Assembly: GCA_018241405.1 (NCBI GenBank)
Contig: JAFEDY010000019.1
Span: forward strand, 1,709 to 65,708
Origin: Pseudomonadota bacterium
Lineage (GTDB): Bacteria; Pseudomonadota; Gammaproteobacteria; Burkholderiales; Burkholderiaceae_C
Length of the DNA stretch: 64,000 bases
Reading direction: 5' to 3'
Positions 17,018-31,710 of the stretch are shown here, piece after piece (within the stretch, counting starts at the first letter, position 1; each line of letters opens with the position of its first letter). Below the pieces are notes generated by a model. It searched no databases and was not told the origin of the DNA. It was given only the letters and a program-made list of their open reading frames with translations. The position numbers and the translations under genes were made by a program.

Positions 17018-17989
17018 ATGACCCTGACCCGCCGCCACCTGCTGGCCAGCGCCCTTGCCGCCGGCGCCGTTCAAGCGTTCCCCGTCTGGGCCGACGCAAA
17101 GACCCTGCGCATCCTCGTGGGCTTCCCGCCCGGTGGCGGCTCGGACGCCATCGCGCGCCTGCTGGCCGACAAGCTCAAGGACGCGCTCGCCATGCCCGTG
17201 GTGGTGGACAACCGCCCCGGCGCGGGCGGGCAGATCGCGGCCCAGGTGCTCAAGAGCGCGCCGGCCGACGGCGGCACGCTGTTCCTCACACATGACCACA
17301 CCATCTCCATCCTGCCCCAGGTGGTGAAGAACCCCGGCTTCGACCCGACGCATGACTTCACGGCGGCTGGCGGCTTCGCCACCTTCGTCAACTGCCTGGC
17401 CGTGCCCGCCGCGACCCCGGCGGCCAGCTTTGGTGAGTTCGTGCAGTGGGTCAAGCAGCACAAGGCGGGCAAGAGCGCCGTGGGCATCCCCGCGCCGGCC
17501 TCGACGCCCGAGTTTCTGGTCAGGCTGCTGGGCCAGCGCTATGGCCTGGACCTGGTGGCCGTGCCCTACCGCGGCAGCGCGCCCATGATCGGCGACATGC
17601 TGGGCAACCAGATACCGGCGGGCGTGGGTTCGGTGCAGGACTTCATCGAGAACCACCGCGCCGGCAAGCTGCGCGTGCTGGCCGTGCTGGGCGGCAAGCG
17701 CCAGGCAGCGCTGCCGGATGTGCCCACCTTTGCCGAGCTGGGCCTGGCCGGCTTCGAGGAGACGCCGTACTACGGCTTCTATGCCCCTGCGGGCACGCCC
17801 GAGGCGGCGCTGGTGCGCTTTTCCGAGGCGCTGTCGAAGGTCTTGGACCAGCCCCAGGTGCGCGAGCAGCTCACGGCCATGGGCCTTACCGTGGGCTTCA
17901 TGACGCCCACCCAGCTTGGCACGCGCGAGCGCGCCTACACCAAGGTATGGCAGCGCATCATTGAGGACAGCGGCTTCAGGCCGCAGTGA
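17018..17989 (+). CDS. Bug-family tripartite tricarboxylate transporter substrate-binding protein
   Basis: 323-residue periplasmic binding protein with a signal peptide (TRRHLLASALAAGAV, cleavage near Ala25-Asp26). Bug/TctC signatures are ILVGFPPGGGSDAIARLLAD, VVVDNRPGAGGQIAA, VPYRGSAPMIGDMLGNQI and FAELGLAGFEETPYYGFYAPAGTP. Such proteins capture carboxylates or other small solutes; Betaproteobacteria carry many orphan copies, and no TctA/TctB membrane genes adjoin this one. Ligand unknown. It lies 20 nt upstream of the alpha-2-macroglobulin start. Confidence 0.92.
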   Translation: MTLTRRHLLASALAAGAVQAFPVWADAKTLRILVGFPPGGGSDAIARLLADKLKDALAMPVVVDNRPGAGGQIAAQVLKSAPADGGTLFLTHDHTISILPQVVKNPGFDPTHDFTAAGGFATFVNCLAVPAATPAASFGEFVQWVKQHKAGKSAVGIPAPASTPEFLVRLLGQRYGLDLVAVPYRGSAPMIGDMLGNQIPAGVGSVQDFIENHRAGKLRVLAVLGGKRQAALPDVPTFAELGLAGFEETPYYGFYAPAGTPEAALVRFSEALSKVLDQPQVREQLTAMGLTVGFMTPTQLGTRERAYTKVWQRIIEDSGFRPQ

Positions 17990-18009
17990 GCCGTGGAAGG
18001 ACTCCGGGC

Positions 18010-21000
18010 ATGACAACAAAATATGGCATGCGCGGGGCGATGGTGGCCCTGCTGGTTCTGGCCGCTGGCGCCGTCCAGGCCCTCACCGTGACCAGCCTGT
18101 CCCCGCAGGGCGAGGTGGCGCGCGTGCGCCAGGTCGTCGCCAAGTTTGACGGCCCGGCCGTGCGGCTTGGCGACCCGCAGGCACCCGCGCCGTTCACTCT
18201 GTCCTGCAGCGATGCCGATGCCGCCAAGGGCCAGGGGCGCTGGACGGGAGCGCGCGAATGGGTCTACGACTTTGCCCAGGACCTGCCGCCCGGTGTGCGC
18301 TGCACGGTCAGCGCAAAAGCAGGATTCAAATCGGCCTCTGGCGCGCAACTGACGGGCGCCAGCAGCTATCAATTCAATACTGGAGGCCCGTTCGTGCAGA
18401 GCGTGCGCCCCGGCACCTGGCAGGAGATCGACGAGGAGCAGTTCTTCGTGCTGCAGTTGAATGGCCCGGCCACGCCCGCGAGCCTGCTGGAGCATATGTG
18501 GTGCGCGGCCGAGGGCGTGGGCGAGCGCGTGCCCGTGCGCCTGGTCGAGGGCACGCAGCGCGCCGATCTGCTCAAGTCCCTGCACTTGGACAAGGCCGCG
18601 GCCAAGGAGCCGCTGCGCTACGCCACGCTGACCTGCGGGCGGCGCCTCACGGCGGGCAGCCAGATGCAGCTGGTCTATGGCAAGGGTGTGGCCACACCCA
18701 GCGGCGTGGCCAACAGCGTGGAGAAGCACTTTGCCTACAAGGTGCGTCAGCCCTTTGCCGTCGAGTTTGGCTGCGAGCGCGAGAACGCCCAGTCTGCCTG
18801 CCTGCCCGTGCGCCCCATGCGCCTGGCCTTCAACGCGCCCGTGCCGCGCAAGCTGGCCCAGGACATACGCCTGAAGGGCGGCGACCAGACGCTGGCGCCG
18901 AAAGCCGAGGGCGAGGGGGACGGCGACGCCCTGGTCAACGGCGTGACGTTTGCCGCGCCGTTTGCGCCGCAGACGCAGTACCTGCTGTCGCTGCCCGCGG
19001 GCTTCAAGGACGCGGCCGGGCGCGCGCCGGCCAATGCGCAGAGCTTTCCGCTCAAGGTGGCGACCGGCGCCATGCCGCCGCTGGCCAAGTTTGCCGCCGC
19101 GCCCTTTGGCGTGGTGGAGCGCTTTGCCGAGGGGGCGGACGGCCCGGCGCTGCTGCCCGTCACGCTGCGCAAGGTGGAGGCGCGGCTCGATGTCCAGGGC
19201 CTGCAACCAGGCTCCGGAAAGGTGAGCACGCTGCGGCCGGAAAGCGACGCCGACATCATCGCCTGGCTGCGCAAGCTGCAGCGCTATGACGAGGCCACGG
19301 TGGAGCGTGCCCAGGCCCGCCGCGACGTCAAGACCCCGCTGCCCGCGGTGCTGGATGAGCGCGATGCCGGCCAGGTGCAGACGCGCATGCTGTCGCTGCT
19401 CGCCGGCCAGGCCGGCGTGAAGCAGCTGGATTTGCCCGCGCCGGCCCAGGACGACCCGCGCCCCTTCGAGGTGGTGGGCATTCCCTTGCCGCCGGGCTTT
19501 TCGGTGGTGGAGATCGCCTCGCCGCTGCTGGGCCAGTCGCTGCTGGACGCGCGCTATGGGGCAGGGCGCAGCATGTACGTGCGCACCAGCGCCCTGGTCA
19601 CCAACCTGGGCGTGCATTTCAAGCTGGGCCGCGAGAACGCCGTGGCCTGGGTCACCACGCTGGACAAGGGCCGGCCCGTGGCGGGTGCGCAACTGCAGGT
19701 CTCCAGCTGCGACGGCAAGCCGCTGGCCAAGGCGACGACGGGCGCCGACGGCGTGGCCCGTTTCGAGGGCCTGGCGAGCGAGCCGCCGGTGTGCAGCGGC
19801 GAGGACGACTGGCGCCGCGCCTACTTCGTGAGCGCGCGCACGCAAGGCGAGCTGGCCTTCACCTGGAGCGACTGGCAGCGCGGCATAGAGCCCTGGCGCT
19901 TCAACGTGCCCACCAGCAGCGCGCCGCGCCCCGATGAGGTGGCGCACACCATCTTCGACCGCACGCTGTTGCGCGCGGGCGAGACCATTTCGATGAAGCA
20001 CCTGCTGCGCACCGAGACCGGCCGCGGCTTTGGCCTGCCCGATGCGCGCCCCACCGAGCTGCTCATCACCCATGTGGGCAGCGGCCAGCAGTTCACGCAG
20101 CCGCTCCAATGGCGCAAGACGGCGACCGGGGGGCTCTCTGCCGAGAGCACTTTCGCCGTGCAGCCGGCCGCCAAGCTGGGCGAATACCAGGTGCAGCTGC
20201 GCGCCGGTGCGGCGGGCAAAGAGGGCGAGGCAGGCGGTGAGCAGCGCAGCCTGGAGTCCGGCAGCTTTCGCGTCGAGGAGTTCCGCCTGCCCGTGCTGCA
20301 GGGGCGCATTGCCCCTGTGGGCCAGCAGCCCCTGGTGCACCCGCGCAGCGTGCCCACGGATGTGCAGGTTAGCTACGTAGCGGGCGGCGCCGCGGCGCGC
20401 CTGCCGGTGCGCGTGTCGGCCATGGTGCGCGCCAAGCCGCTGCAGTTTGCCGACTTCGACGACTTCAGCTTCCAGTCGCCACGCGGGCGCGACGCGGGCA
20501 GCGCGGGCAACGACGATGAGGAAGCGACAAACCAGAGCGCGCGCGTGATCGCCGACAAGCTGCCGCTCATGCTTGACAAGAACGGCGTCGGGCGCCTGAC
20601 GATCGACGGCGTGCCCCAGGCCCCGCGGGCGCAGGAGCTGGTGCTGGAGGCCAGCTACGCCGACCCCAATGGCGAGCTGCAGACCCTGCGCAGCACCAAC
20701 ACATTGTGGCCCGCGGCAGTGGTGGCCGGCATCAAGACCGAGGGCTGGGTGTCGAGCGGCGCGCGCGTGCGCCTGCAGGCGCTGGCCCTGTCGGCGGGTG
20801 GCAAGCCGCTGGCCGGCGTGCCGCTGGCCGTGCAGGCCATTGCGCGCAGCACCACCAGCAGCAGAAAGCGCCTGGTGGGCGGCTTCTACAGCTATGACAA
20901 CAAGACCACGACCCGCGACCTGGGCACGCTGTGCACCGGCAAGAGCGATGCGCGCGGCCTGCTGCTGTGCGACGCCAGGCTCGACGACCCAGGCGAGGTG

Positions 21001-23961
21001 GAGCTGGTCGTCAGCGCACGCGACAAGGACGGCAACGAGGCCCAGGCCGCGTCCTCGGTCTGGGTCACCAAGCGTGGCGAGCTCTGGTTTGGCGGCCAGG
21101 ACCATGACCGCATCGACCTGCTGCCGGAGAAGAAAAACTACCAGCCGGGCGAGACCGCGCGCCTGCAGCTGCGCATGCCGTTTCGCCAGGCCACGGCCCT
21201 GGTCAGCGTGGAGCGCGAGGGCGTGATCAGCACGCGTGTGGTGCAGCTCAGCGGCCAGGACCCGACCGTCGAGGTCAAGATCGAAGAAGGCTGGGCGCCC
21301 AACGTCTACGTGAGCGTGCTGGTGCTGCGCGGGCGCCTGTACGAGGTGCCCTGGTACAGCTTCTTCACCTGGGGCTTCAAGGCGCCGCGCGAATGGTGGA
21401 ACGCCTTCTGGTACGAGGGCCGCGAATACCGCGCGCCCACGGCCATGGTGGATCTGTCCAGGCCCGCCTACCGCCTGGGCCTGGCCGAGCTGCGCGTGGG
21501 CCATGCGGCGCACCAGATTGCGGTGCAGGTCCAGGCCGACAAGGACAGCTACCCCGTGCGCGGCAAGGCACAGGTCACCATTCAAGCGCGCCTGCCCGAC
21601 GGCAAGCCCGCCGCAGGGGCCGAGGTGGCGCTGGCTGCCGTAGACCAGGCGCTGCTCGAGCTCATGCCCAACCGCAGCTGGGACCTGCTCGGCGCCATGC
21701 TGCAGCGCCGCGCCTGGGGCGTGGCCACCTCCACGGCGCAGATGGAGATCATCGGCCGGCGCCACTACGGCAAGAAGGCCGTGCCCGCGGGCGGCGGCGG
21801 CGGGCGCGCGCCCACGCGCGAGCTGCTCGATACGCTCCTCTTGTGGCAGCCGGCCATCAAGCTCGATGCCCAGGGCCAGGCCCGCGTCACAGTGCCGCTC
21901 AACGATGCGCTGACCACCTTCAAGGTGGTGGCCGTGGCCGATGCGGGCCTCGGCCTGTTCGGCACCGGCAGCACCAGCATTCGCGCCACGCAGGACCTGC
22001 AGATCATCAGCGGCCTGCCGCCGCTGGTGCGCGAGGACGACCAGTACCGCGCCCAGCTCACGCTGCGCAACGGCACGGCCCGGGCCATGAAGGTGGAGGT
22101 CACGCCGCGCGCCACGCTGCTCACGCTCGCGCCGCAGACCGTGGACATCCCCGCGGGCGAGGCGCGCGAACTGGCCTGGGACGTCACCGCCCCCGCGCAG
22201 CTCGGACAGACGCGTGCCCAGGCCATCCTGTGGGAGGTGGAGGCGCGCGACCTGCTTGGCGGCGCGCGCGATGCGCTCAAGGCCAGCCAGCGGCTGGTGC
22301 CGGCCTGGCCGCTTACGGTGCAGCAGGCCACGCTGGTGCAGGTGGATGGGGCGTACCGCGTGGACGTGGCGCCGCCCGCGGGTGCACTGCCCGGGCGCGG
22401 CGGCGTGAGGCTTGCGCTGCAGCCCAGCCTGGCCGAGGGCCTGCCGGGCGTGCGCGACTGGTGGGCGCGCTACCCCTATGCCTGCCTGGAGCAGCAGGCC
22501 AGCAAGGCCATGGGCATGGGCGACGGCAAGGCATGGCAGACAATAGTCGCCAAGCTGCCCACCTATCTGGACGGCGATGGCCTGGCCTACTACTTCCCCC
22601 CCCAGGCCGGCGGCGCCGACCGCGGCAGCGACACGCTCAGCGCCTACCTGCTGGCGGCATCGCACGAGGCCGCGCGCCTGGCGCCCGAATTTGCCCTGCC
22701 GCCCGAGGCGCGCGACCCTTTGGAGCGCGGCTTGGCCGCGTTTGTCGAGGGCCGCATAGAGCGCAATTTCTGGAGCCCGCGCAAGGATCTGGACATGCGC
22801 AAGCTCGCCGCCATCGAGGCGCTGTCGCGCTACGGCAAGGCCCAGGCGCGCTGGCTGACCAGCCTGACCATTGCGCCCAACCAGTGGCCCACGCATGCGG
22901 TGATCGACTGGCTCAACATCCTGCGGCGCATGCAGGACGTGCCCCAGCGCGCCCAGCGCCTGCAGGAGGCCACGCAGATCCTGCGCGCGCGCCTGTCCTA
23001 CCAGGGCAGTCGCCTGGGCTTCAGTACCGAGCAGGACGACGCCTGGTGGTGGCTGATGCAGAACTCCGACGTGAACAGCGCGCGCCTGATCCTTGCCGTC
23101 CTGGACGACCCGGCGTGGAAGGACGAGCTGGGGCGCCTGGCCGGCGGCTTCATCGCGCGCCAGCAGGGCGGCGCCTGGCACACCACCACCGCCAACCTGT
23201 GGGGTGGGCTGGCGCTGGCGCGGTTCAGCGCCCGGCTGGAGGCTACGCCGGTGGCCGGCACCACGCGCGCCAGCATGGGCGGCGCGTCTGCCAGCGTGGA
23301 CTGGGCCAAGGTTGCGCGCGTGCAGGCCGCTGATGCCACGGGTGCCGCGCACCAGGGCCGCTGGTTCGGCGCGCCCGACGCTCCCGGCATGCTGACCCAC
23401 AACACCCTATTCCTGCCCTGGGCCGGCAGCCAGCAGCTCAGCGTCACGCAGCGGGGGCCGGGCCGGCCCTGGCTCACGCTGCAGTCGGTGGCCGCCGTGC
23501 CGGTGCGGGAGTCCTTCAGCGCGGGTTTTGCTATCACGCGCAGCATCACGCCCGTGGAGCAGGCCAACAAGGATTTGCCCGCCGGCAGCTACACGCGCGG
23601 CGATGTGCTGCGCGTCACGCTGGAGGTCACGGGCCAGGCGGACATGAGCTGGGTGGCGATCACCGATCCCGTGCCCGCCGGCGCCACCATCCTGGGCAGC
23701 GGCCTGGGGCGCGATTCCGAGATCGCTACCCAGGGCGAAAAGCGCAGCGGCAGCGGCTGGCCCGCGTTCGAGGAGCGCGGCTTCGAGTCCTTCCGCGGCT
23801 ACTACGAGTACCTGCCCAAGGGCACGGTGAAGATGGAGTACACGCTGCGCCTGAACAACGCGGGCGACTTCGCGCTGCCACCGAGCCGCGTCTCGGCGCT
23901 CTATGCGCCCGAGATGTTCGGCGAGGCGCCCAACGCACGCGTGAAGGTGGTGCAACCCTAG
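18010..23961 (+). CDS. Bacterial alpha-2-macroglobulin with thioester motif
   Basis: 1983-residue periplasmic alpha-2-macroglobulin of the YfhM type, thought to trap proteases that reach the periplasm. The chain is a series of macroglobulin beta domains with the bait/MG7 region (about 870-1290) and then the thioester domain: Cys1492-Leu-Glu-Gln1495 in YPYACLEQQASKAMG is intact. The start at 18010 has GGAAGGA 8 nt upstream. The signal peptide ends near ALA/VQA and I see no lipobox cysteine, unlike lipoprotein YfhM, so it may be soluble. The usual partner pbpC lies about 15 kb downstream. A dispersed repeat lies at residues 101-125. Confidence 0.93.
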   Translation: MTTKYGMRGAMVALLVLAAGAVQALTVTSLSPQGEVARVRQVVAKFDGPAVRLGDPQAPAPFTLSCSDADAAKGQGRWTGAREWVYDFAQDLPPGVRCTVSAKAGFKSASGAQLTGASSYQFNTGGPFVQSVRPGTWQEIDEEQFFVLQLNGPATPASLLEHMWCAAEGVGERVPVRLVEGTQRADLLKSLHLDKAAAKEPLRYATLTCGRRLTAGSQMQLVYGKGVATPSGVANSVEKHFAYKVRQPFAVEFGCERENAQSACLPVRPMRLAFNAPVPRKLAQDIRLKGGDQTLAPKAEGEGDGDALVNGVTFAAPFAPQTQYLLSLPAGFKDAAGRAPANAQSFPLKVATGAMPPLAKFAAAPFGVVERFAEGADGPALLPVTLRKVEARLDVQGLQPGSGKVSTLRPESDADIIAWLRKLQRYDEATVERAQARRDVKTPLPAVLDERDAGQVQTRMLSLLAGQAGVKQLDLPAPAQDDPRPFEVVGIPLPPGFSVVEIASPLLGQSLLDARYGAGRSMYVRTSALVTNLGVHFKLGRENAVAWVTTLDKGRPVAGAQLQVSSCDGKPLAKATTGADGVARFEGLASEPPVCSGEDDWRRAYFVSARTQGELAFTWSDWQRGIEPWRFNVPTSSAPRPDEVAHTIFDRTLLRAGETISMKHLLRTETGRGFGLPDARPTELLITHVGSGQQFTQPLQWRKTATGGLSAESTFAVQPAAKLGEYQVQLRAGAAGKEGEAGGEQRSLESGSFRVEEFRLPVLQGRIAPVGQQPLVHPRSVPTDVQVSYVAGGAAARLPVRVSAMVRAKPLQFADFDDFSFQSPRGRDAGSAGNDDEEATNQSARVIADKLPLMLDKNGVGRLTIDGVPQAPRAQELVLEASYADPNGELQTLRSTNTLWPAAVVAGIKTEGWVSSGARVRLQALALSAGGKPLAGVPLAVQAIARSTTSSRKRLVGGFYSYDNKTTTRDLGTLCTGKSDARGLLLCDARLDDPGEVELVVSARDKDGNEAQAASSVWVTKRGELWFGGQDHDRIDLLPEKKNYQPGETARLQLRMPFRQATALVSVEREGVISTRVVQLSGQDPTVEVKIEEGWAPNVYVSVLVLRGRLYEVPWYSFFTWGFKAPREWWNAFWYEGREYRAPTAMVDLSRPAYRLGLAELRVGHAAHQIAVQVQADKDSYPVRGKAQVTIQARLPDGKPAAGAEVALAAVDQALLELMPNRSWDLLGAMLQRRAWGVATSTAQMEIIGRRHYGKKAVPAGGGGGRAPTRELLDTLLLWQPAIKLDAQGQARVTVPLNDALTTFKVVAVADAGLGLFGTGSTSIRATQDLQIISGLPPLVREDDQYRAQLTLRNGTARAMKVEVTPRATLLTLAPQTVDIPAGEARELAWDVTAPAQLGQTRAQAILWEVEARDLLGGARDALKASQRLVPAWPLTVQQATLVQVDGAYRVDVAPPAGALPGRGGVRLALQPSLAEGLPGVRDWWARYPYACLEQQASKAMGMGDGKAWQTIVAKLPTYLDGDGLAYYFPPQAGGADRGSDTLSAYLLAASHEAARLAPEFALPPEARDPLERGLAAFVEGRIERNFWSPRKDLDMRKLAAIEALSRYGKAQARWLTSLTIAPNQWPTHAVIDWLNILRRMQDVPQRAQRLQEATQILRARLSYQGSRLGFSTEQDDAWWWLMQNSDVNSARLILAVLDDPAWKDELGRLAGGFIARQQGGAWHTTTANLWGGLALARFSARLEATPVAGTTRASMGGASASVDWAKVARVQAADATGAAHQGRWFGAPDAPGMLTHNTLFLPWAGSQQLSVTQRGPGRPWLTLQSVAAVPVRESFSAGFAITRSITPVEQANKDLPAGSYTRGDVLRVTLEVTGQADMSWVAITDPVPAGATILGSGLGRDSEIATQGEKRSGSGWPAFEERGFESFRGYYEYLPKGTVKMEYTLRLNNAGDFALPPSRVSALYAPEMFGEAPNARVKVVQP
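18313..18384 (-). repeat. Dispersed Comamonadaceae-type repeat, copy 3 (inside alpha-2-macroglobulin, inverted)
   Basis: Read on the minus strand it gives TTGATAGCTGCTGGCGCCCG and then GCGCCAGAGGCCGATTTGAA, the same modules in the same order as the copy at 48291-48357. It is translated in frame in the opposite sense within the first macroglobulin domain. Confidence 0.6.
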
Positions 23962-24024: not shown

Positions 24025-25134
24025 ATGAGCCTCGTCCAGCGCCTGCCAGTAGGCCCCCTCGACATCGTCGGCGACATCCACGGCGAGATCGCGGCGCTGG
24101 AGCAGCTGCTCGCGCATCTGGGCTACGACCGCGCGGGCCGGCATGCCGATGGTCGCCGCCTGGTGTTCGTCGGCGACTTTTGCGACCGCGGCCCCGACAG
24201 TCCCGCGGTGCTGCGCCTCATCCTGCCCATGCTGGCCAGTGGCCAGGCCCTGGCCGTGCTGGGCAACCACGAGATCAACCTGCTGCGCGACGACGCCAAG
24301 GACGGCTCGGGTTGGTACTTCGACAGCCGCCGCATGTCCGACGAGGCGCGCTACGCCCCGTTTGCGCGCATGCCCATGGACGAGGCGCCGGCCATGCTGG
24401 CGCAGCTCGCCCAGCTGCCGATTGCCCTGGAGCGGGACGACCTGCGCGTGGTCCATGCCGCCTGGTGCGCGCCGCAGATCGCCACGGCGCGCGGCCTGGC
24501 CGCCAGCGGCGCGCGCAGCGCCTACGACGACTACGAGGATCTGGCGGCGCGCCGGGCCAGGGCCAGCGACGTGGCCGGCCGCATGCAGGAAGAGCGCCGG
24601 CAATGGCCCCACAGCCTGGAAGACCACGGCCAGAAGCCGCCCTTCCTGCCCGCGCACAGTGAGCGCGAGCTGGGCAAGTCCATGGTCAACCCGCTCAAGG
24701 TGCTCACGGCCGGCGTGGAGCGCGAATGCCGCACGCCCTTCTACGCCGGTGGCAAATGGCGCTTCGTGCAGCGCGTGGCCTGGTGGAACGAATATGCCGA
24801 TGCGCTGGCCGTCATCGTCGGCCACTACTGGCGCCGCCTGCAGCCCGGCGACGCACCGGCCCACGGGCCGCAGGCCGAAAACCTCTTCGGCCATACCCCG
24901 CCGCTGGCCTGGCATGGCCTGCGCGGCAATGTGTTCTGCGTGGACTATTCCGTGGGCGGGCGCTGGCTGGCGCGCCAGCAGGGCGAGGACCCGAACCGCC
25001 GCTTCAAGCTGGCTGCCATGCGTTGGCCCGAGCGCGAGCTGGTGTTCGACGATGGCACGCGGTTCGCCTCCCAGGGCTATGGTGCGCCCATGCAGGCAGG
25101 TGCGAGTCCAGTCCTGAACCCCACCAGCACGTAA
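24025..25134 (+). CDS. Calcineurin-like metallophosphoesterase
   Basis: 369-residue predicted phosphoesterase with the dinuclear-metal motifs in order: GDIHGE (about 17-22), GDFCDRGPDS (about 51-60), GNHEIN (about 81-86), and later VVHAAWC and IVGHYWRR histidines. This is the PPP-like arrangement seen in bacterial serine/threonine phosphatases and diadenosine tetraphosphatases; substrate cannot be assigned. The start was placed at MSLVQRLPVGP; an ATG at 23992 would add 11 residues. It follows the alpha-2-macroglobulin by 63 nt and precedes the patatin gene by 101 nt, so it could be cotranscribed with either. Confidence 0.85.
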   Translation: MSLVQRLPVGPLDIVGDIHGEIAALEQLLAHLGYDRAGRHADGRRLVFVGDFCDRGPDSPAVLRLILPMLASGQALAVLGNHEINLLRDDAKDGSGWYFDSRRMSDEARYAPFARMPMDEAPAMLAQLAQLPIALERDDLRVVHAAWCAPQIATARGLAASGARSAYDDYEDLAARRARASDVAGRMQEERRQWPHSLEDHGQKPPFLPAHSERELGKSMVNPLKVLTAGVERECRTPFYAGGKWRFVQRVAWWNEYADALAVIVGHYWRRLQPGDAPAHGPQAENLFGHTPPLAWHGLRGNVFCVDYSVGGRWLARQQGEDPNRRFKLAAMRWPERELVFDDGTRFASQGYGAPMQAGASPVLNPTST

Positions 25135-25235
25135 GCGCACGCTGCGCCAAACGGCCCCGATTTTCTTGTGTTTGCAGGGGCACCGGTCTACCATGACTGC
25201 GGCCGTTCCATGCGGATGCGGCGGAGGGCAGGCAG

Positions 25236-26387
25236 ATGGCAGTCGATGGAAAAACGATGGGGCTTGCGCTCTCCGGTGGTGGCTACCGGGCCACGCTGTT
25301 CGGACTGGGCTCGTTGTGGCGGCTCAATGATGCGGGCCTCTTGGGCCGGCTCGATCGCATCACCGGCGTCTCGGGCGGCGCCATTGTGCTGGGGGTGCTG
25401 GCCCATGCCTGGCGCCAGCTGCGCTTGGCAGACGGCCGCGCCAGCAACTTTGCCGAGGTCGTCGCGGCGCCGGTGCGGCGCCTGTGTTCCAGCACCATCG
25501 ACATTGGCGCGGGAGTGGCCGGCACGCTTGTGCCGGGCAAGAGCGCGGGCGAGTTTCTGGCAGATCGCTATCGCCAGGATCTGTTCGGTGACACCGGCCT
25601 CAAGGCGTTGCCTTCCCTGGCAGATGGGGCGCCGATCTTCATCTTCTATGCGACCAATCTGCAGACCGGGCGCAGCTTCCGCTTCCGCCAGGACTACATC
25701 GCCGATTACATGCTGGGCATGGCGCACAACGTAGACATTGCGCTGGCGGTGGCCGTTGCGGCCTCGAGCGCCTTCCCGCCGATCTTCTCGCCCATCGTGC
25801 TCAAAACCGACCCGGCCGCATGGACCGAAGGCAGCGCGTTACCCGAGCTCGATGCGCTGCGCAGGCGCATCGTTCTGGCCGACGGCGGCGTGTACGACAA
25901 CATGGGGCTGGAGGCGCTGGTCGGCAGGCATGACGGCAACGGCGCGGCCCTAGAGGCTGGAGACGCCAACAAGGTGGACATCGTCCTGGCAAGCGACGCG
26001 GGCGCACCCTTCGAGGTCGAGGACAGTCCACACGAAGACAAACTGAGGCAGCTTGGCCGGGTGCGTGACATCCTGATCGACCAGACACGCGCGCTGCGCA
26101 AGCGTTGGCTGGTCGCCGAGTTCACGGCCAAGCGCCAGCGCGGCGCCTACTGGGGCATAGGCACGCGCATGGCGGCATTCGCCCCTGGCGCGCCGCGCAT
26201 GGCCGTTGATTCCGCGGCCAGCGATGCGCTCAAACAGGTTCCCACACGGCTTGCCGCCTTCGACGATGAGCGGCAAGGGCAGCTGATCAACTGGGGCTAC
26301 GCGCTGTGCGACATATCGCTGCGCGCCAATGCGGGCCTGGCGCCGCCACTGCCCAGCGGCTGGCCCGTGCCCGAGTGGCCGCTGTGA
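25236..26387 (+). CDS. Patatin-like phospholipase (cassette gene 1)
   Basis: 383-residue patatin-fold hydrolase. The oxyanion loop is GGGYRA (14-19), the nucleophile elbow GVSGG with Ser46, and the catalytic Asp is Asp216 in LADGGVYDNMG, so the Ser-Asp dyad is complete. No signal peptide is seen; it should act from the cytosol on membrane lipids. Patatins of this build serve as membrane-degrading effectors in CBASS (CapV) and other immune systems; no cyclase lies here. GGAGGG precedes the start. It is followed 46 nt later by the CHAT protein, then an MBL enzyme; the three look like one operon. A housekeeping lipase role is the alternative. Confidence 0.9.
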   Translation: MAVDGKTMGLALSGGGYRATLFGLGSLWRLNDAGLLGRLDRITGVSGGAIVLGVLAHAWRQLRLADGRASNFAEVVAAPVRRLCSSTIDIGAGVAGTLVPGKSAGEFLADRYRQDLFGDTGLKALPSLADGAPIFIFYATNLQTGRSFRFRQDYIADYMLGMAHNVDIALAVAVAASSAFPPIFSPIVLKTDPAAWTEGSALPELDALRRRIVLADGGVYDNMGLEALVGRHDGNGAALEAGDANKVDIVLASDAGAPFEVEDSPHEDKLRQLGRVRDILIDQTRALRKRWLVAEFTAKRQRGAYWGIGTRMAAFAPGAPRMAVDSAASDALKQVPTRLAAFDDERQGQLINWGYALCDISLRANAGLAPPLPSGWPVPEWPL

Positions 26388-26433
26388 CCTGTGGCGCACG
26401 CCTGTACCGCAACCACAACGCAGAGGCAGCGAC

Positions 26434-29382
26434 ATGGACAGGTATGGCTTGAACGCATGGAGCCTGGATCTCGGCGACGAGGCGTTCCCGGCGGCCCTGG
26501 CGGCGCTGGGCGTCCTCGGCACGCTGACCGCCGATGCCTTGGCTGAGGCCCACGATGGACGCGAGGGATGGCATGCGGACGCACTGGCCCGGCTGATCCG
26601 CGACGCCATCGATCCCCATACGGGCATCGTGCCGTGGCAACTGCCGCAGCAGCCTGCGCGTAGCGCCGTGCCGCGCTTGTCCGTCAAGCATGCCGGCCAG
26701 CGCCGTGCCTCGCCCAGGCCCGCGCCGGCGGCCGATGTATTGGCGGGGCTTTGGCGCGGGCTTGTCGACGGGCTGCCCCGGCGGGACGGAAGGGCTGAGG
26801 CGCCGCGCATCGAACTGCGCGCGCCTGTGCGCGGGATGGCGCGGGTCATGGCCATGGCCGACATCCTGGCGCAGCCTGGCGCCGCGGCCGCCGGCGTCTT
26901 CGTTGGCACTGCGTTTCCGACAGAGGGCCGGGCGGAGTGGCGCTGGCCGCTGACCATGGCCACCCTGCCTGGCGATCCGCTGGGCCAGGCGCTGGCCGAG
27001 CGCCAGCGCTGGAAGCCCGGCGACTGGCCCATCCGAGTGCGAGAGGCTTCGCGTGCAGTCTCGCGCTTTGAAGTGCTCGTCATCGGCGCCGGCGTGAGCG
27101 ATGCCCTGGCCAGGCTGCTCACGAGCCGCCTGTCGCTGCGCTGCGGACTGGTGTTGATCAGCGGCCAGGGCAACGAGCCGCCGGGCGAGCGCGAGGCCTT
27201 GCTGCGCGCACTGGCCGTGCGTCTGTCGGCAGATGGCGTGGCGGTGCTCGACCCGGGTGATTCGCTGCAGGACTTCGCCGGCCGGCTCGATGGCTTTGGC
27301 TTTGCGCTCACGCACAACCTGACGATTGACCAGGCCCTCAAGGAAGTGTTTGGTGCGGGTGCGTTGCTTGTCGCCGAGCCCGCGCTGCTGGAGCGCGCGC
27401 GCCTGGACACCAGCGTCACCCGCGCCACGCAGCGCCTGCGCCGCATGGCGCCCGGCAGCAGGCTGCAGCTGTCGGAGCGATCGCTGGATCTGCTTCGGCG
27501 GGACGTAGTCATGGCCGCGGCGCCACCCGTCGGTGCGGCAATGCGCGCGCCACCCGTTGCCGCGGGAGCCATGCCGCCCAAGGATCTGGCCGACGCGATC
27601 GAGGCGGCGCGCGATCACTACGAGTTTCGCCACGAGTCGGGCGAGGCCACGGCCATCTCCGAGCTGAACCAACGCCTGGGCGAGGCCGAGCGCGCCGCCG
27701 ACCGCGAGGAGCGCGAGCCGCGCCATATCCAGCAGCAAAGCTATTGCAAGCGCAAGACACGCTTTGTGGCCGAGCGCAGGGCCTACACCGTGGGCGTGCC
27801 GGTCATGGTGCGCATCCACATCGGCCCCCGACGGGCGGGCAGCGTGGCCGCGCCCACGGCCTTCCCCGAGGACAAGCTGCCCGAAAGCGCATCCGGCCAC
27901 CGGCTGCAGCTCGTGCTGCACGAGCCGCGCCAGTTCGACACGCCGCTGCTGCGCGAGATCCGCTTGCCGCGCACGGGCGACAGCAGCGCCGCGCGCTTTG
28001 TCTTCACGCCGCGCGTGGCGGGCGCCTTCGAGGCGCGCCTGTCCGTACTGCACCGGGGCCGGGTGCTGCAGACCGTGCTGCTCAGGACGCAGGTGCTCGA
28101 GGGCGCGGGCGCGCCGGCCGGCGAGGATGCGGGCATCACGCTGGACGACGAAACCCAGGTGCGCCACGACTGGTCCGACCTGGGCAGCCGGCAGCAGTTC
28201 GACCTGGCCCTGGTGCTCAACCACACCGCGGCCGGCGAACCATTGGCCACGGGGGTGTCCGGCGGCCGCGCCTGGGCGCGCAGCCTGGAGGGCCTGGCGG
28301 TGCCGGTGCGCAGAATCAACGACCTGCTCTCGGCCGTGGCCCTGAGCGTGCCCGACTATGAGGAGGGGCTGGACCAGGGCGAGAACCCGGGCCTGCTGGT
28401 GCGGCTGGCGCGTGTGGGGGCCAACCTGTATTCGCTGCTCTACCGCGATCAGCTCAAGACCCTGGCCAGCGAGGGCTTCGATGTCGGCGACGCGGCCGTG
28501 AGCCATGTGCAGGTCGTCAGCGCCCGCCCCGATGCGGTCGTGCCGCTGGAATTCATGTACGACTACAACGCCCCCAACCCCGACGCCACGGTCTGCCCGC
28601 AGCACCGCCAGGCGCTGCAGGAGGGGCGTTGCCCGCCCGACTGCGCGCGCTCGGCCGACCCGCGTGCGCATGTCTGCCCCATGGGCTTCTGGGGCCTGAA
28701 GAAGGTGATTGAGCGCCACCTGTTCGACCCGCGCGCGCACCTGCCCGACGGCGCCCAGATGGCCGTGCAGGCCGAGGCCGGCGAGGGCCGCGACCGGCTC
28801 GATCTGGGGCGCGGCGCGCTCGTAGGCCACAGCCATGAGGTGCAGGACACCCAGGTGCAGGCGCTCATCCAGGCACTGCAGGCGGGCCTGGGCAGCGCAC
28901 CCGCGCTCGCGGGCGATTGGGACGAGTGGCGCCGGCTGGTGACGCAGAAGAGTCCCGCGCTGCTGGTGGCCTTCCCGCACAACGAGGGCAAGGAAGAGGA
29001 CATGCTGCTGGAGATCGGCGGCAAAAAGCTCTACACGCTCGATCTGCCTGAGGACTACGTGCGCACCGCCGCCGGCCCGCCGCCGCTGGTCTTTCTGCTG
29101 GGCTGCGACGTGGCGGGCACGGCGCAGGATTTTTCCAGCCATGTGCGCTTCTTCCGCCAGGCGGGGGCGGCGGTGGTCGTCTCCACCATCGCCACCGTGT
29201 TCGGCGCCCATGCGGTCCGCGTGGGCGCGCTGATCCTGGCCGGCCTCATGGGGCCGGAGGCCTCGTCGACGCCCTATCTGGGCGAGCTGATCCGCGACGC
29301 CAAGCGCAAGGCGCTGCTCGAGAGCGTGCCCATGGCCCTGTGCGTGGTGGCCTTTGGCGACGCCGACTGGAGACTGCAATGA
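26434..29382 (+). CDS. Large protein with C-terminal CHAT (caspase-like) protease domain (cassette gene 2)
   Basis: 982-residue soluble protein. The last 150-180 residues fit a CHAT peptidase: His849 in AFPHNEGKEED, Cys891 in VFLLGCDVAGT, then the family's closing strand GAAVVVSTIATVFGAHA. Before it is a possible metal site of four cysteines (721, 733, 737, 748; C-x11-C-x3-C-x10-C) leading to GFWGLKKVIERH. Residues about 430-570 look like a beta-sandwich (VPVMVRIHIG, RLQLVLHEP, ARFVFTPRVAGAFEARL). The N-terminal 400 residues, with an alpha/beta pattern (RFEVLVIGAG, CGLVLISGQG), are unrecognised. The ATG at 26434 was preferred to 26329 because it follows AGAGGCAG and avoids overlap with the patatin gene. 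It overlaps the MBL gene by 4 bp. Confidence 0.75.
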   Translation: MDRYGLNAWSLDLGDEAFPAALAALGVLGTLTADALAEAHDGREGWHADALARLIRDAIDPHTGIVPWQLPQQPARSAVPRLSVKHAGQRRASPRPAPAADVLAGLWRGLVDGLPRRDGRAEAPRIELRAPVRGMARVMAMADILAQPGAAAAGVFVGTAFPTEGRAEWRWPLTMATLPGDPLGQALAERQRWKPGDWPIRVREASRAVSRFEVLVIGAGVSDALARLLTSRLSLRCGLVLISGQGNEPPGEREALLRALAVRLSADGVAVLDPGDSLQDFAGRLDGFGFALTHNLTIDQALKEVFGAGALLVAEPALLERARLDTSVTRATQRLRRMAPGSRLQLSERSLDLLRRDVVMAAAPPVGAAMRAPPVAAGAMPPKDLADAIEAARDHYEFRHESGEATAISELNQRLGEAERAADREEREPRHIQQQSYCKRKTRFVAERRAYTVGVPVMVRIHIGPRRAGSVAAPTAFPEDKLPESASGHRLQLVLHEPRQFDTPLLREIRLPRTGDSSAARFVFTPRVAGAFEARLSVLHRGRVLQTVLLRTQVLEGAGAPAGEDAGITLDDETQVRHDWSDLGSRQQFDLALVLNHTAAGEPLATGVSGGRAWARSLEGLAVPVRRINDLLSAVALSVPDYEEGLDQGENPGLLVRLARVGANLYSLLYRDQLKTLASEGFDVGDAAVSHVQVVSARPDAVVPLEFMYDYNAPNPDATVCPQHRQALQEGRCPPDCARSADPRAHVCPMGFWGLKKVIERHLFDPRAHLPDGAQMAVQAEAGEGRDRLDLGRGALVGHSHEVQDTQVQALIQALQAGLGSAPALAGDWDEWRRLVTQKSPALLVAFPHNEGKEEDMLLEIGGKKLYTLDLPEDYVRTAAGPPPLVFLLGCDVAGTAQDFSSHVRFFRQAGAAVVVSTIATVFGAHAVRVGALILAGLMGPEASSTPYLGELIRDAKRKALLESVPMALCVVAFGDADWRLQ

Positions 29383-30497
29383 CCGACCCAGCCCAAACCT
29401 TCATGCGCGTGGAGATGCTGCCCGCGCTCCACGGCGACTGCCTGCTCGTCGAATACGGCGACGCGCGCCGCACGCGCCGCCTGCTCATCGACGGCGGTCC
29501 CATAGGCGCCTACGGCGCGCTGGACCAGCGCATGGGCCAGCTGCCGGCGGGCGACCGGCGCTTTGAACTCATCGTGCTCAGCCATGTCGATACCGACCAT
29601 GTCGACGGCCTGGTGCGCCTGTTTGCCAACCCCAGGCCCTGGCCCTTCGTCGCCAAGGACTGCTGGTTCAACGGCTGGCGGCATCTGGAACAGGCCCATG
29701 GCCTGCTGGGCGGCAAGCAGGGCGAATATTTCAGCGCCCTGCTGGCGCGCCGCCTGGACGATGGGCAATGGAACGGCGCCTTCGGCGGCCAGGCCGTGGT
29801 GGTGCCGGACGCGGGCCCGCTACCCGAGCGCGAACTGGCCGGCGGCATGCGGCTCACGCTGCTGTCGCCCAGCCCGCAAAAGCTCGACAAGATGCGCGAT
29901 GCCTGGCGCAAGGACATCGCGGGCGCCTTCACGCCGGGGGACCTCGATGCTGCCTGGCAGCAGCTGGCGACGCAGAAGCGCTACCTGCCGGGCCAGGGCC
30001 TGCTGGGCAGCACGCCCGAGCTGGACGCGCTGCTGCAAAAGCAGTCCAAACCCGACAACTCGGCGGCCAATGGATCGAGCATCGCCTTCCTGGCCGAATA
30101 CGCGGGCAAGAGCTGCCTGTTCCTGGCCGACGCGCATCCAGACATCGTCTGCGCCTCGCTGCGTCGGCTGCTGGCCGCGCGCGGGCAGCAGCGCCTGAAG
30201 GTCGATGCCGTCAAGCTCGCCCACCATGGCAGCAAGAGCAACACCAACGACGAGCTGATGGCGCTGATCGACAGCCCGCGCTTTCTGTTCAGCAGCAATG
30301 GCGCGCAGTTCGGCCACCCCGACCGCGAGGCCGTGCAGCGGGTCATCGCCCGTTCGGCCCACCCCGCGCCCACGCTGTTCTTCAACTACCTGAGCGAGCG
30401 CAACCGCGAATGGCAATCGGCCCAGCTGCAGGCGCAGCTGGCCTACCAGGCCGTCTATCCCGATGGGGAGAATCAGCCTCTTTCCGTGGCCTGGTGA
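29379..30497 (+). CDS. Metallo-beta-lactamase-fold hydrolase, ComEC-C-like (cassette gene 3)
   Basis: 372-residue MBL-fold enzyme. The metal motif is LSHVDTDHVDG with His69, Asp71, Asp73 and His74 (HxDxDH, the variant common in the ComEC/Rec2-like branch), followed by LADAHPD and KLAHHGSKSN, both typical of that branch. The first strand, LPALHGDCLLVEYG, also matches. No signal peptide or membrane segment is present. The start ATG overlaps the CHAT gene stop (ATGA), so the two are translationally coupled. Such MBL enzymes are likely nucleases or phosphodiesterases; substrate unknown. Confidence 0.88.
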   Translation: MTDPAQTFMRVEMLPALHGDCLLVEYGDARRTRRLLIDGGPIGAYGALDQRMGQLPAGDRRFELIVLSHVDTDHVDGLVRLFANPRPWPFVAKDCWFNGWRHLEQAHGLLGGKQGEYFSALLARRLDDGQWNGAFGGQAVVVPDAGPLPERELAGGMRLTLLSPSPQKLDKMRDAWRKDIAGAFTPGDLDAAWQQLATQKRYLPGQGLLGSTPELDALLQKQSKPDNSAANGSSIAFLAEYAGKSCLFLADAHPDIVCASLRRLLAARGQQRLKVDAVKLAHHGSKSNTNDELMALIDSPRFLFSSNGAQFGHPDREAVQRVIARSAHPAPTLFFNYLSERNREWQSAQLQAQLAYQAVYPDGENQPLSVAW

Positions 30498-30509
30498 TGT
30501 AACCGCAGG

Positions 30510-30560
30510 CCTGTGCGCCGTCATGCGGCCGTCACATCGGTGGCCTACAGTGCGCACAGG
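30510..30560. repeat. Inverted repeat downstream of the three-gene cassette
   Basis: CCTGTGCGC (30510-30518) pairs perfectly with GCGCACAGG (30552-30560) across a 33-nt loop. It sits 13 nt after the MBL stop, in the 211-nt gap to the convergent regulator. There is no T-run, so it is not a classical terminator; it may protect the transcript end or be chance. Confidence 0.4.
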
Positions 30561-30708
30561 TTTGCGAATGCAAGCGAGCAGGTGATCCAAACAGAAGTGC
30601 TTCGCGCGATTGCAGTCCATGTGCCTGTGCATTGGGCCAGGCACCCTCTGCAATGCCGCGTCGTGGGGACGATGGTGTTGGGGTGGCCGCACCGTGGCGC
30701 CGTGATGT

Positions 30709-31674
30709 TCATGCCTTGAACCGCTTGCGATAGCCGCCCGGGCTGGTGCCGAGCCGGCTGCGAAAATGCCCGCGCAGCGTTGCGGCGTCGCCAAAGCCGA
30801 CCTGCAGCGCGATGTCATCCACGCCGGCATCCGATTCTTCGAGCAGGGTCCTGGCAGCGGCCAGGCGCTGGGCGAGCAGCCACTCGCCCGGCGGCATGCC
30901 CATGGCGCTGACGAAGTGGCGCTGGAAGCTGCGTGCGCTGCTGGCGGTGTGTGCCGCCATCCTGGCGATGGGCCAGTCCCCCCTCAGGTTGGCGCGCACC
31001 GCGTCGAGCAGCGGGGCCAGCGATGCGCTGGCGCGCCGGGACACGGGCTCCTCGATGTACTGCGCCTGTCCGCCCTCGCGGTGCGGCGGCATCACCAGGC
31101 GCCGGGCCACATGGTTGGCCGCGCGCGGGCCCAGGTCGCGGCGGATCAGGTGCAGGCACAGGTCAATGCCGGCCGCGCTGCCGGCCGAGGTCAGGATGGA
31201 GCCCGCATCGACGTACAGCACATCGGCCTGCACCTGCACCCGCGGATAGCGGTCCGCCAGCGTGGGGGCATGGCGCCAATGCGTGGTGGCGCGCCGGCCG
31301 TCGAGCAGGCCCGCGGCCGCCAGCACGAAGGCGCCCGTGCAGATGGACAGGATGCGTGCGCCGCGCGCATGGGCCTGCCGCAGGGCCGCGCACAGCGGCT
31401 CGGGGACGGGGGCGTCCACCGCGCGCCACCCGGGGACGATGATGGTGCGCGCCTGTTCGAGCAGCTCCAGCCCCGCCGCGGGCTGCACCTGTATTCCGCC
31501 CGCACCTCGCAGCGCTCCGGGCTCGGCGGCGCAGGCGGCAAAGCGGTACCAGCGCTCACCGAGCTCCGGCCGCGGCAGGCCGAAGACCTCGACGGTGCAG
31601 CCGTATTCGAACAGGCTCAGGCCGTCATATACGACGGCGGCCACCAGTCCAGGGTCGATGGGGGTGGTTTCCAT
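30709..31674 (-). CDS. ftrA: FtrA/GlxA-type AraC family transcriptional regulator
   Basis: 321-residue regulator: an N-terminal DJ-1/PfpI (GATase1-like) domain (about 10-175) with the elbow ILSICTGAFVLAAAGLL, then an AraC-type double helix-turn-helix (about 225-318) with MAAHTASSARSFQRHFVSAMG and VGFGDAATLRGHFRSRLG. Betaproteobacterial members of this build are annotated FtrA. I placed the start at METTPIDP; an upstream ATG at 31707 adds 11 residues and neither has a strong ribosome-binding site. It is divergent from the DUF3088 gene and probably controls it; direct repeats lie in the shared interval. Confidence 0.85.
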   Translation of the reverse strand: METTPIDPGLVAAVVYDGLSLFEYGCTVEVFGLPRPELGERWYRFAACAAEPGALRGAGGIQVQPAAGLELLEQARTIIVPGWRAVDAPVPEPLCAALRQAHARGARILSICTGAFVLAAAGLLDGRRATTHWRHAPTLADRYPRVQVQADVLYVDAGSILTSAGSAAGIDLCLHLIRRDLGPRAANHVARRLVMPPHREGGQAQYIEEPVSRRASASLAPLLDAVRANLRGDWPIARMAAHTASSARSFQRHFVSAMGMPPGEWLLAQRLAAARTLLEESDAGVDDIALQVGFGDAATLRGHFRSRLGTSPGGYRKRFKA

Positions 31675-31675
31675 A

Positions 31676-31710
31676 TTGGCATGATTATTACGTAAGTTGG
31701 CATTCATGCC
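31676..31710. promoter_or_regulatory. Candidate AraC-type operator between ftrA and the DUF3088 gene
   Basis: TTGGCAT occurs at 31676-31682 and again at 31697-31703, 21 bp (two helical turns) apart on the same face, the spacing usual for AraC-family half-sites. An overlapping inverted pair GGCATGA/TCATGCC (31678-31684, 31704-31710) is also present. If FtrA starts at 31707 the site would be coding. Confidence 0.4.

Follow-up and report, generated by a model that had tools for sequence, protein, structure and literature searches.

A CHAT-type protease gene overlapping a gated MBL nuclease gene: a candidate protease/pro-nuclease immune pair

The 982-residue protein studied here probably serves as the protease in an immune pair with a pro-nuclease, which would make the pair a CHAT-type relative of the canu caspase-nuclease systems described in 2025; we give this reading a probability of about 0.7. 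The decisive clue was the overlapping downstream gene, which specifies an MBL-fold nuclease of the Avs1a/LmuA/canu type. Both genes lie, together with a patatin gene, in a cassette within the window, the stretch of 64,000 nucleotides that was analysed.

25089 to 30608, unstranded: 5.5-kb patatin-CHAT-MBL cassette, absent at the same site in congeners G142 and G1036
25236 to 26387, + strand: patatin-like phospholipase, accessory gene (PF01734, E 3e-16)
26434 to 29382, + strand: 982-aa CHAT-type protease gene (17 homologues)
29379 to 30497, + strand: MBL-fold gated pro-nuclease with intact HxDxDH and HHGS motifs (LmuA, Avs1a and ComEC matches)

Searches of Pfam, NCBIfam and PADLOC with the 982-aa protein returned no family that covers it, in agreement with the initial annotation, which could name no family for the part upstream of the CHAT domain. 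The Pfam CHAT model alone did not match at the thresholds used, and a PDB sequence search gave nothing significant. The best Pfam hint was a sub-threshold match to Peptidase_C25, a caspase-clan family, seen in 5 of 11 homologues. Homologues are rare: nine true matches were found among 300 genomes of the family (the window's own genome included) and two among 369 genomes of the class, and a profile search of 398 genomes of the phylum recovered only the window's own genome. Two additional hits were discarded as chance matches on reading their sequences, the tenth family match being CysN (L021/G002) and the third class match a subtilase (L024/G489). Further homologues came from two metagenome-assembled genome contigs and five plasmids (Sinorhizobium, Azospirillum, Cupriavidus), and viral contigs searched with the CHAT-core and nuclease alignments held no relatives. 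Close homologues align over the full length, while divergent ones clearly share only residues ~430 to 982. A full-length AF2 model built from a three-sequence alignment was too poor for use (pLDDT 42.9).

The predicted protease domain is C-terminal.

28396 to 29370, + strand: CHAT domain, residues ~655 to 979 (hhalign against eight canonical CHATs)
28978 to 28980, + strand: His849, predicted catalytic His, invariant in 14 homologues
29104 to 29106, + strand: Cys891, predicted catalytic Cys, invariant in 14 homologues and aligned with the CHAT catalytic Cys

Comparison by hhalign of an alignment of 14 homologues with a profile built from eight canonical CHATs of related genomes gave a local match with E 4e-5. 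Its score was 45.6, and none of 60 column shuffles exceeded 22.4; the shuffles were judged by local scores only, as one shuffled global value (127) looks like a parsing outlier. In low-cutoff and global alignments, the VMLPFGNLGALPF strand pair of CHAT lined up with VQVVSARPDAVVPLEF and its catalytic LSACDSG with LLGCDVAG, and the terminal GD coincided as well. His849 and Cys891 stand in caspase-type order 42 residues apart, which is also the distance between H585 and C627, the dyad residues of Craspase TPR-CHAT (PMC9729208). On the strength of the profile-profile match, the aligned catalytic Cys and this shared spacing, we conclude that the protein carries a C-terminal CHAT-type (caspase/separase-fold) protease domain with a predicted His849-Cys891 dyad.

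Two further segments lie upstream of this domain.

26917 to 27378, + strand: degenerate CHAT/caspase-like alpha/beta domain, residues ~162 to 315 (AF2, Foldseek, VIA, hhalign)
27721 to 28113, + strand: predicted beta-rich (Ig-like?) segment, residues ~430 to 560 (low-confidence prediction), at the start of the region common to divergent homologues

An AF2 model of residues 1 to 350 reached a mean pLDDT of 67.8, and this medium-confidence model supports the alpha/beta N-terminal region proposed earlier. The initial annotation had also guessed at a second, degenerate CHAT-like domain here, which now has moderate support. The top four Foldseek matches of the model were all chains of one entry, 8tl0, a SAVED-CHAT filament, at E 1e-3 to 1e-2. 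When 12 N-terminal sequences were compared by hhalign with the CHAT catalytic half, the match had E 8e-4 and scored 32.7, while 100 shuffles reached 18.4 at most. The alignment keeps the strand of the catalytic Cys and the last helices in register. The position of the catalytic Cys is occupied by Gln245 here and by Gln, Leu, His or Ala in close homologues, never by Cys. An ordinary Rossmann-type ligand-binding sensor is the competing account of this domain, since VIA placed separases and 8tl0 near the top (Z 6.5 to 6.9, a separase first at 6.9) in a virtual tie with Rossmann folds (6.0 to 6.8). The profile comparison and the Foldseek result both argue against it, and we hold it the less probable of the two. 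A degenerate CHAT catalytic half without its Cys is the better reading of residues ~162 to 315, as judged from profile and model. The beta-sandwich once suggested at ~430 to 570 fared less evenly: strands are indeed predicted at 431-440, 443-452, 506-510, 523-526, 530-540 and 543-554, but at a pLDDT below 40, so that the fold itself stays at low confidence.

The CHAT domain itself contains a cluster of cysteines.

28594 to 28677, + strand: four-cysteine insert, Cys721, Cys733, Cys737 and Cys748 (codons at 28594, 28630, 28642 and 28675; homologue alignment)

The four residues are present with the spacing C-x11-C-x3-C-x10-C just ahead of GFWGLKKVIERH, as first described. Their placement ahead of the CHAT domain, in a regulatory part, had to be abandoned: the profile-profile alignment puts residues 700 to 800 inside the domain, with the cluster after the conserved PLEF strand, before GFWGL and upstream of the His849/Cys891 dyad. 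The insert falls in the first half of CHAT. In Csx29 the first half, CHAT1, forms a pseudo-caspase subdomain that precedes the active CHAT2 (PMC10028731), and the insert may map to CHAT1.

All 17 homologues keep at least four cysteines between PLEF and CP.GF, although identity drops to ~25%. The number is thus conserved, while the spacing falls into three classes (C-x11-C-x3-C-x8..12-C, C-x13-C-x2-C-x16-C and C-x5-C-x9-C-x9-C). A constant number of cysteines with changing spacing is how metal sites behave, and the pattern therefore favors the zinc-type site that had been suspected. Most likely, the insert would bind a zinc with a structural role, giving order to the regulatory first half of CHAT or to a surface for a partner or substrate. 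The conserved number would also suit regulation of the protease by disulfides or a redox switch. We consider that unlikely, as a C-P-x-C pair together with variable spacing is typical of zinc knuckles, and both are seen here (C-P-x-C in L020 and L046); the partner genes, moreover, suggest a cytoplasmic protein.

The ATG of the nuclease gene overlaps the CHAT stop codon as ATGA at 29379. Its product matched the models of LmuA (1e-67), Avs1a (3e-48 and 8e-67 in separate searches) and RTasMBL; it also matched ComEC (4e-9), and the segment between the two halves of its metal site is ~80 residues longer than in ComEC. For relatives of this nuclease, Tuck et al. 2025 (PMC12799240) showed that two insertions keep the enzyme locked until a partner protease cleaves them. 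The sites of the trypsin-like proteases are Ile residues (HamM I118 and I218; Avs1a I134 and I234), and a conserved Gly was proposed as the gate site of canu caspases (PMC12799240). By analogy, the present nuclease would likewise be gated and activated through proteolysis by its neighbor.

29706 to 29711, + strand: gate 1, predicted cleavage site Leu110-Gly111 of the nuclease (nuclease alignment)
30003 to 30008, + strand: gate 2, predicted cleavage site Leu209-Gly210 of the nuclease (nuclease alignment)

Gates were compared in an alignment of 28 nucleases. In Avs1a relatives, the gate Ile falls at 133-143 and 234-246. In the columns of the Avs1a sites Ile134 and Ile234, which have experimental support, both gates read Leu-Gly in all 15 CHAT-linked nucleases, even though the median pairwise identity among these is 37%. 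Gate residues are mostly [LFY]-Gly in caspase-linked nucleases and I-[SG] in trypsin-linked ones. In a tree, the CHAT-linked and caspase-linked (canu-type) nucleases group apart from the trypsin-linked ones with support of 99/97. As the tree needs only two label changes, Leu-Gly could be inherited rather than selected if the CHAT-linked nucleases represent few lineages. Cleavage is predicted to follow either the Leu or the Gly; for Csx29, the reported cut in Csx30 lies after Leu407 (PMC9729208).

Gated-type nucleases were also seen in other settings. One lies beside ABC-three-component genes with Ile-Ser in both gates (L039), and another beside unnamed genes (L042). On an Agrobacterium plasmid (L036:4542-10997), a nuclease of the same group without a recognized protease precedes a metallophosphoesterase and an ORC/CDC6-like protein. 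On a Bosea plasmid (L038:2470-8171), an MBL nuclease has a caspase on either side, with two TIR proteins adjacent, and canu-like loci on Sinorhizobium and Bradyrhizobium plasmids (L033, L034) stand beside lipase-like genes (patatin; DUF2235).

The nuclease gene adjoins the CHAT gene at every locus with a readable neighbor, namely, the window, L011 to L013, L015 to L020, L026 to L029, L046 and L047; L014 runs off its contig and was left out of this count. The patatin gene is less constant. It lies beside the CHAT gene in the window and in L011, L012, L014 to L017, L020 and L046, and 5 kb upstream in L018, and is absent from L013, L019 and L026 to L029. In genome G004, CHAT-MBL follows the phosphoesterase gene that flanks the cassette in the window, with the patatin deleted; in L013, the deleted patatin has left a 65-bp remnant. 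Since the patatin was lost in G004 and the plasmid versions of the locus lack it, we regard it as accessory. Gasdermins are the substrates or effectors in other CHAT pairs, and the patatin, directly upstream at most loci and traveling in the same cassette, might by the same token be the main substrate or effector of the protease, with the nuclease a passenger or second effector. This is improbable: CHAT and MBL stay together where the patatin is missing (L019, L026 to L029) or deleted (L013), and the gate residues go with the class of protease.

The insertion contains the patatin, CHAT and MBL genes only, and its ends display no obvious direct repeats or inverted ends. At the empty site of G142, the end of the metallophosphoesterase gene lies ~120 bp from the sequence preceding the AraC/DJ-1-type gene; this genome has its own patatin-CHAT-MBL set at another place, where a canonical TPR-CHAT protein (PF12770, E 1e-35) follows it (L017:12368-15433). 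The upstream alpha-2-macroglobulin (A2M) and metallophosphoesterase genes were considered as members of the system and dropped, the phosphoesterase being present in 6 of 6 genus genomes searched. No other defense gene was found among the scanned genes of the window. The A2M gene (17986 to 23961) encodes a 1991-aa bacterial protein with a Big_5 domain and belongs to the conserved chromosomal flank. On the other side, a 309-aa + strand ORF (30766 to 31692) is the antisense of the real AraC/DJ-1-type regulator (30709 to 31707, - strand). A divergent locus (L018:2729-12728) has a patatin, an AAA ATPase, a trypsin-STAND/NACHT protein, a zinc-CHAT protein and an MBL nuclease in a row, that is, two protease types beside one gated nuclease. 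A role in DNA uptake or metabolism instead of immunity, which the homology of the nuclease to the ComEC MBL domain might suggest, is very improbable given a cassette without a competence gene, gate segments absent from ComEC, a sporadic distribution and an empty site.

As a protease/pro-nuclease pair, the locus might operate as follows. The degenerate N-terminal domain and the beta-rich segment would keep the CHAT protease off until an infection signal, sensed or relayed by the N-terminal part, switched it on. The active protease would then cut the neighboring nuclease at Leu-Gly in the two loops that cover its active site, and the freed nuclease would degrade DNA, so that the infected cell is stopped or killed; the patatin would be an accessory, possibly a second, effector. 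The pair would in that case resemble a bacterial self-destruct switch against viruses. Of these elements, the dyad, the cysteine set, the pairing of the genes, the two-gate motif and the discrete insertion are visible in the sequences; gating and proteolytic activation follow from homology, and zinc, trigger and phage defense are more conjectural. More tentatively, at somewhat less than even odds, the locus may represent a distinct class of protease-gated nuclease immunity, in which a zinc-loop CHAT with a pseudo-CHAT sensor has co-evolved Leu-Gly sites with its own MBL pro-nuclease and recruited a patatin. If so, two effectors, against DNA and membrane, would stand under one caspase-like initiator. 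On the main reading, the nuclease immunity gated by caspases or trypsin-like proteases that was described in late 2025 would extend to separase-like CHAT proteases, and a protein family that lacks any database name gains a testable job. The switch of both gates with protease class, Ile for trypsin and Leu-Gly for CHAT, would further allow substrate specificity to be predicted from sequence alone.

Among known systems, canu (CanABC; Tuck et al. 2025, PMC12799240) likewise has a caspase-clan protease gene just ahead of that for a gated MBL nuclease, a conserved Gly in both gates (15 of 15 CHAT-linked nucleases here) and nucleases that fall on this side of the tree. It differs in having CanB between protease and nuclease, a gene that the present cassette lacks; here, a CHAT carrying the four-Cys insert acts as the predicted protease, and a patatin is added. 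Canu is also marked by an Ig-like fold, and residues 430-560 are predicted at low confidence to be beta-rich. The main text of PMC12799240 mentions neither CHAT nor patatin. Comparison of the CHAT protein by hhalign with CanA and CanB profiles from plasmid canu loci gave no match, and because CanA- and CanB-like proteins were sought and not found, we do not file the cassette as canu proper, yet it would work like canu. AVAST type 1 (Avs1a/b/c), Lamassu-MBL, Hachiman HamMAB and DRT-MBL have a homologous MBL pro-nuclease with two gates but pair it with a trypsin-like protease and Ile gate sites, whereas the cassette has no trypsin, STAND, SMC or HamB gene. Specifically, the Avs1b trypsin and Avs1c STAND of AVAST type 1 are absent, with CHAT and patatin as the neighbors of the nuclease, and so is the gene for the SMC-like ATPase LmuB of Lamassu. 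The SAVED-CHAT filament protease (PDB 8tl0) is the top Foldseek match of the N-terminal model, a weak one (E 1e-3, TM 0.2), and no SAVED domain was recognized in our protein. Csx29/Craspase TPR-CHAT differs in its TPR and CRISPR partner, neither of which the present protein has, and the present protein in its cysteine insert and extra N-terminal degenerate domain; with Csx29 and eukaryotic separase, it shares the CHAT dyad, the same His-Cys spacing and the arrangement of a pseudo-caspase plus an active caspase (PMC10028731).
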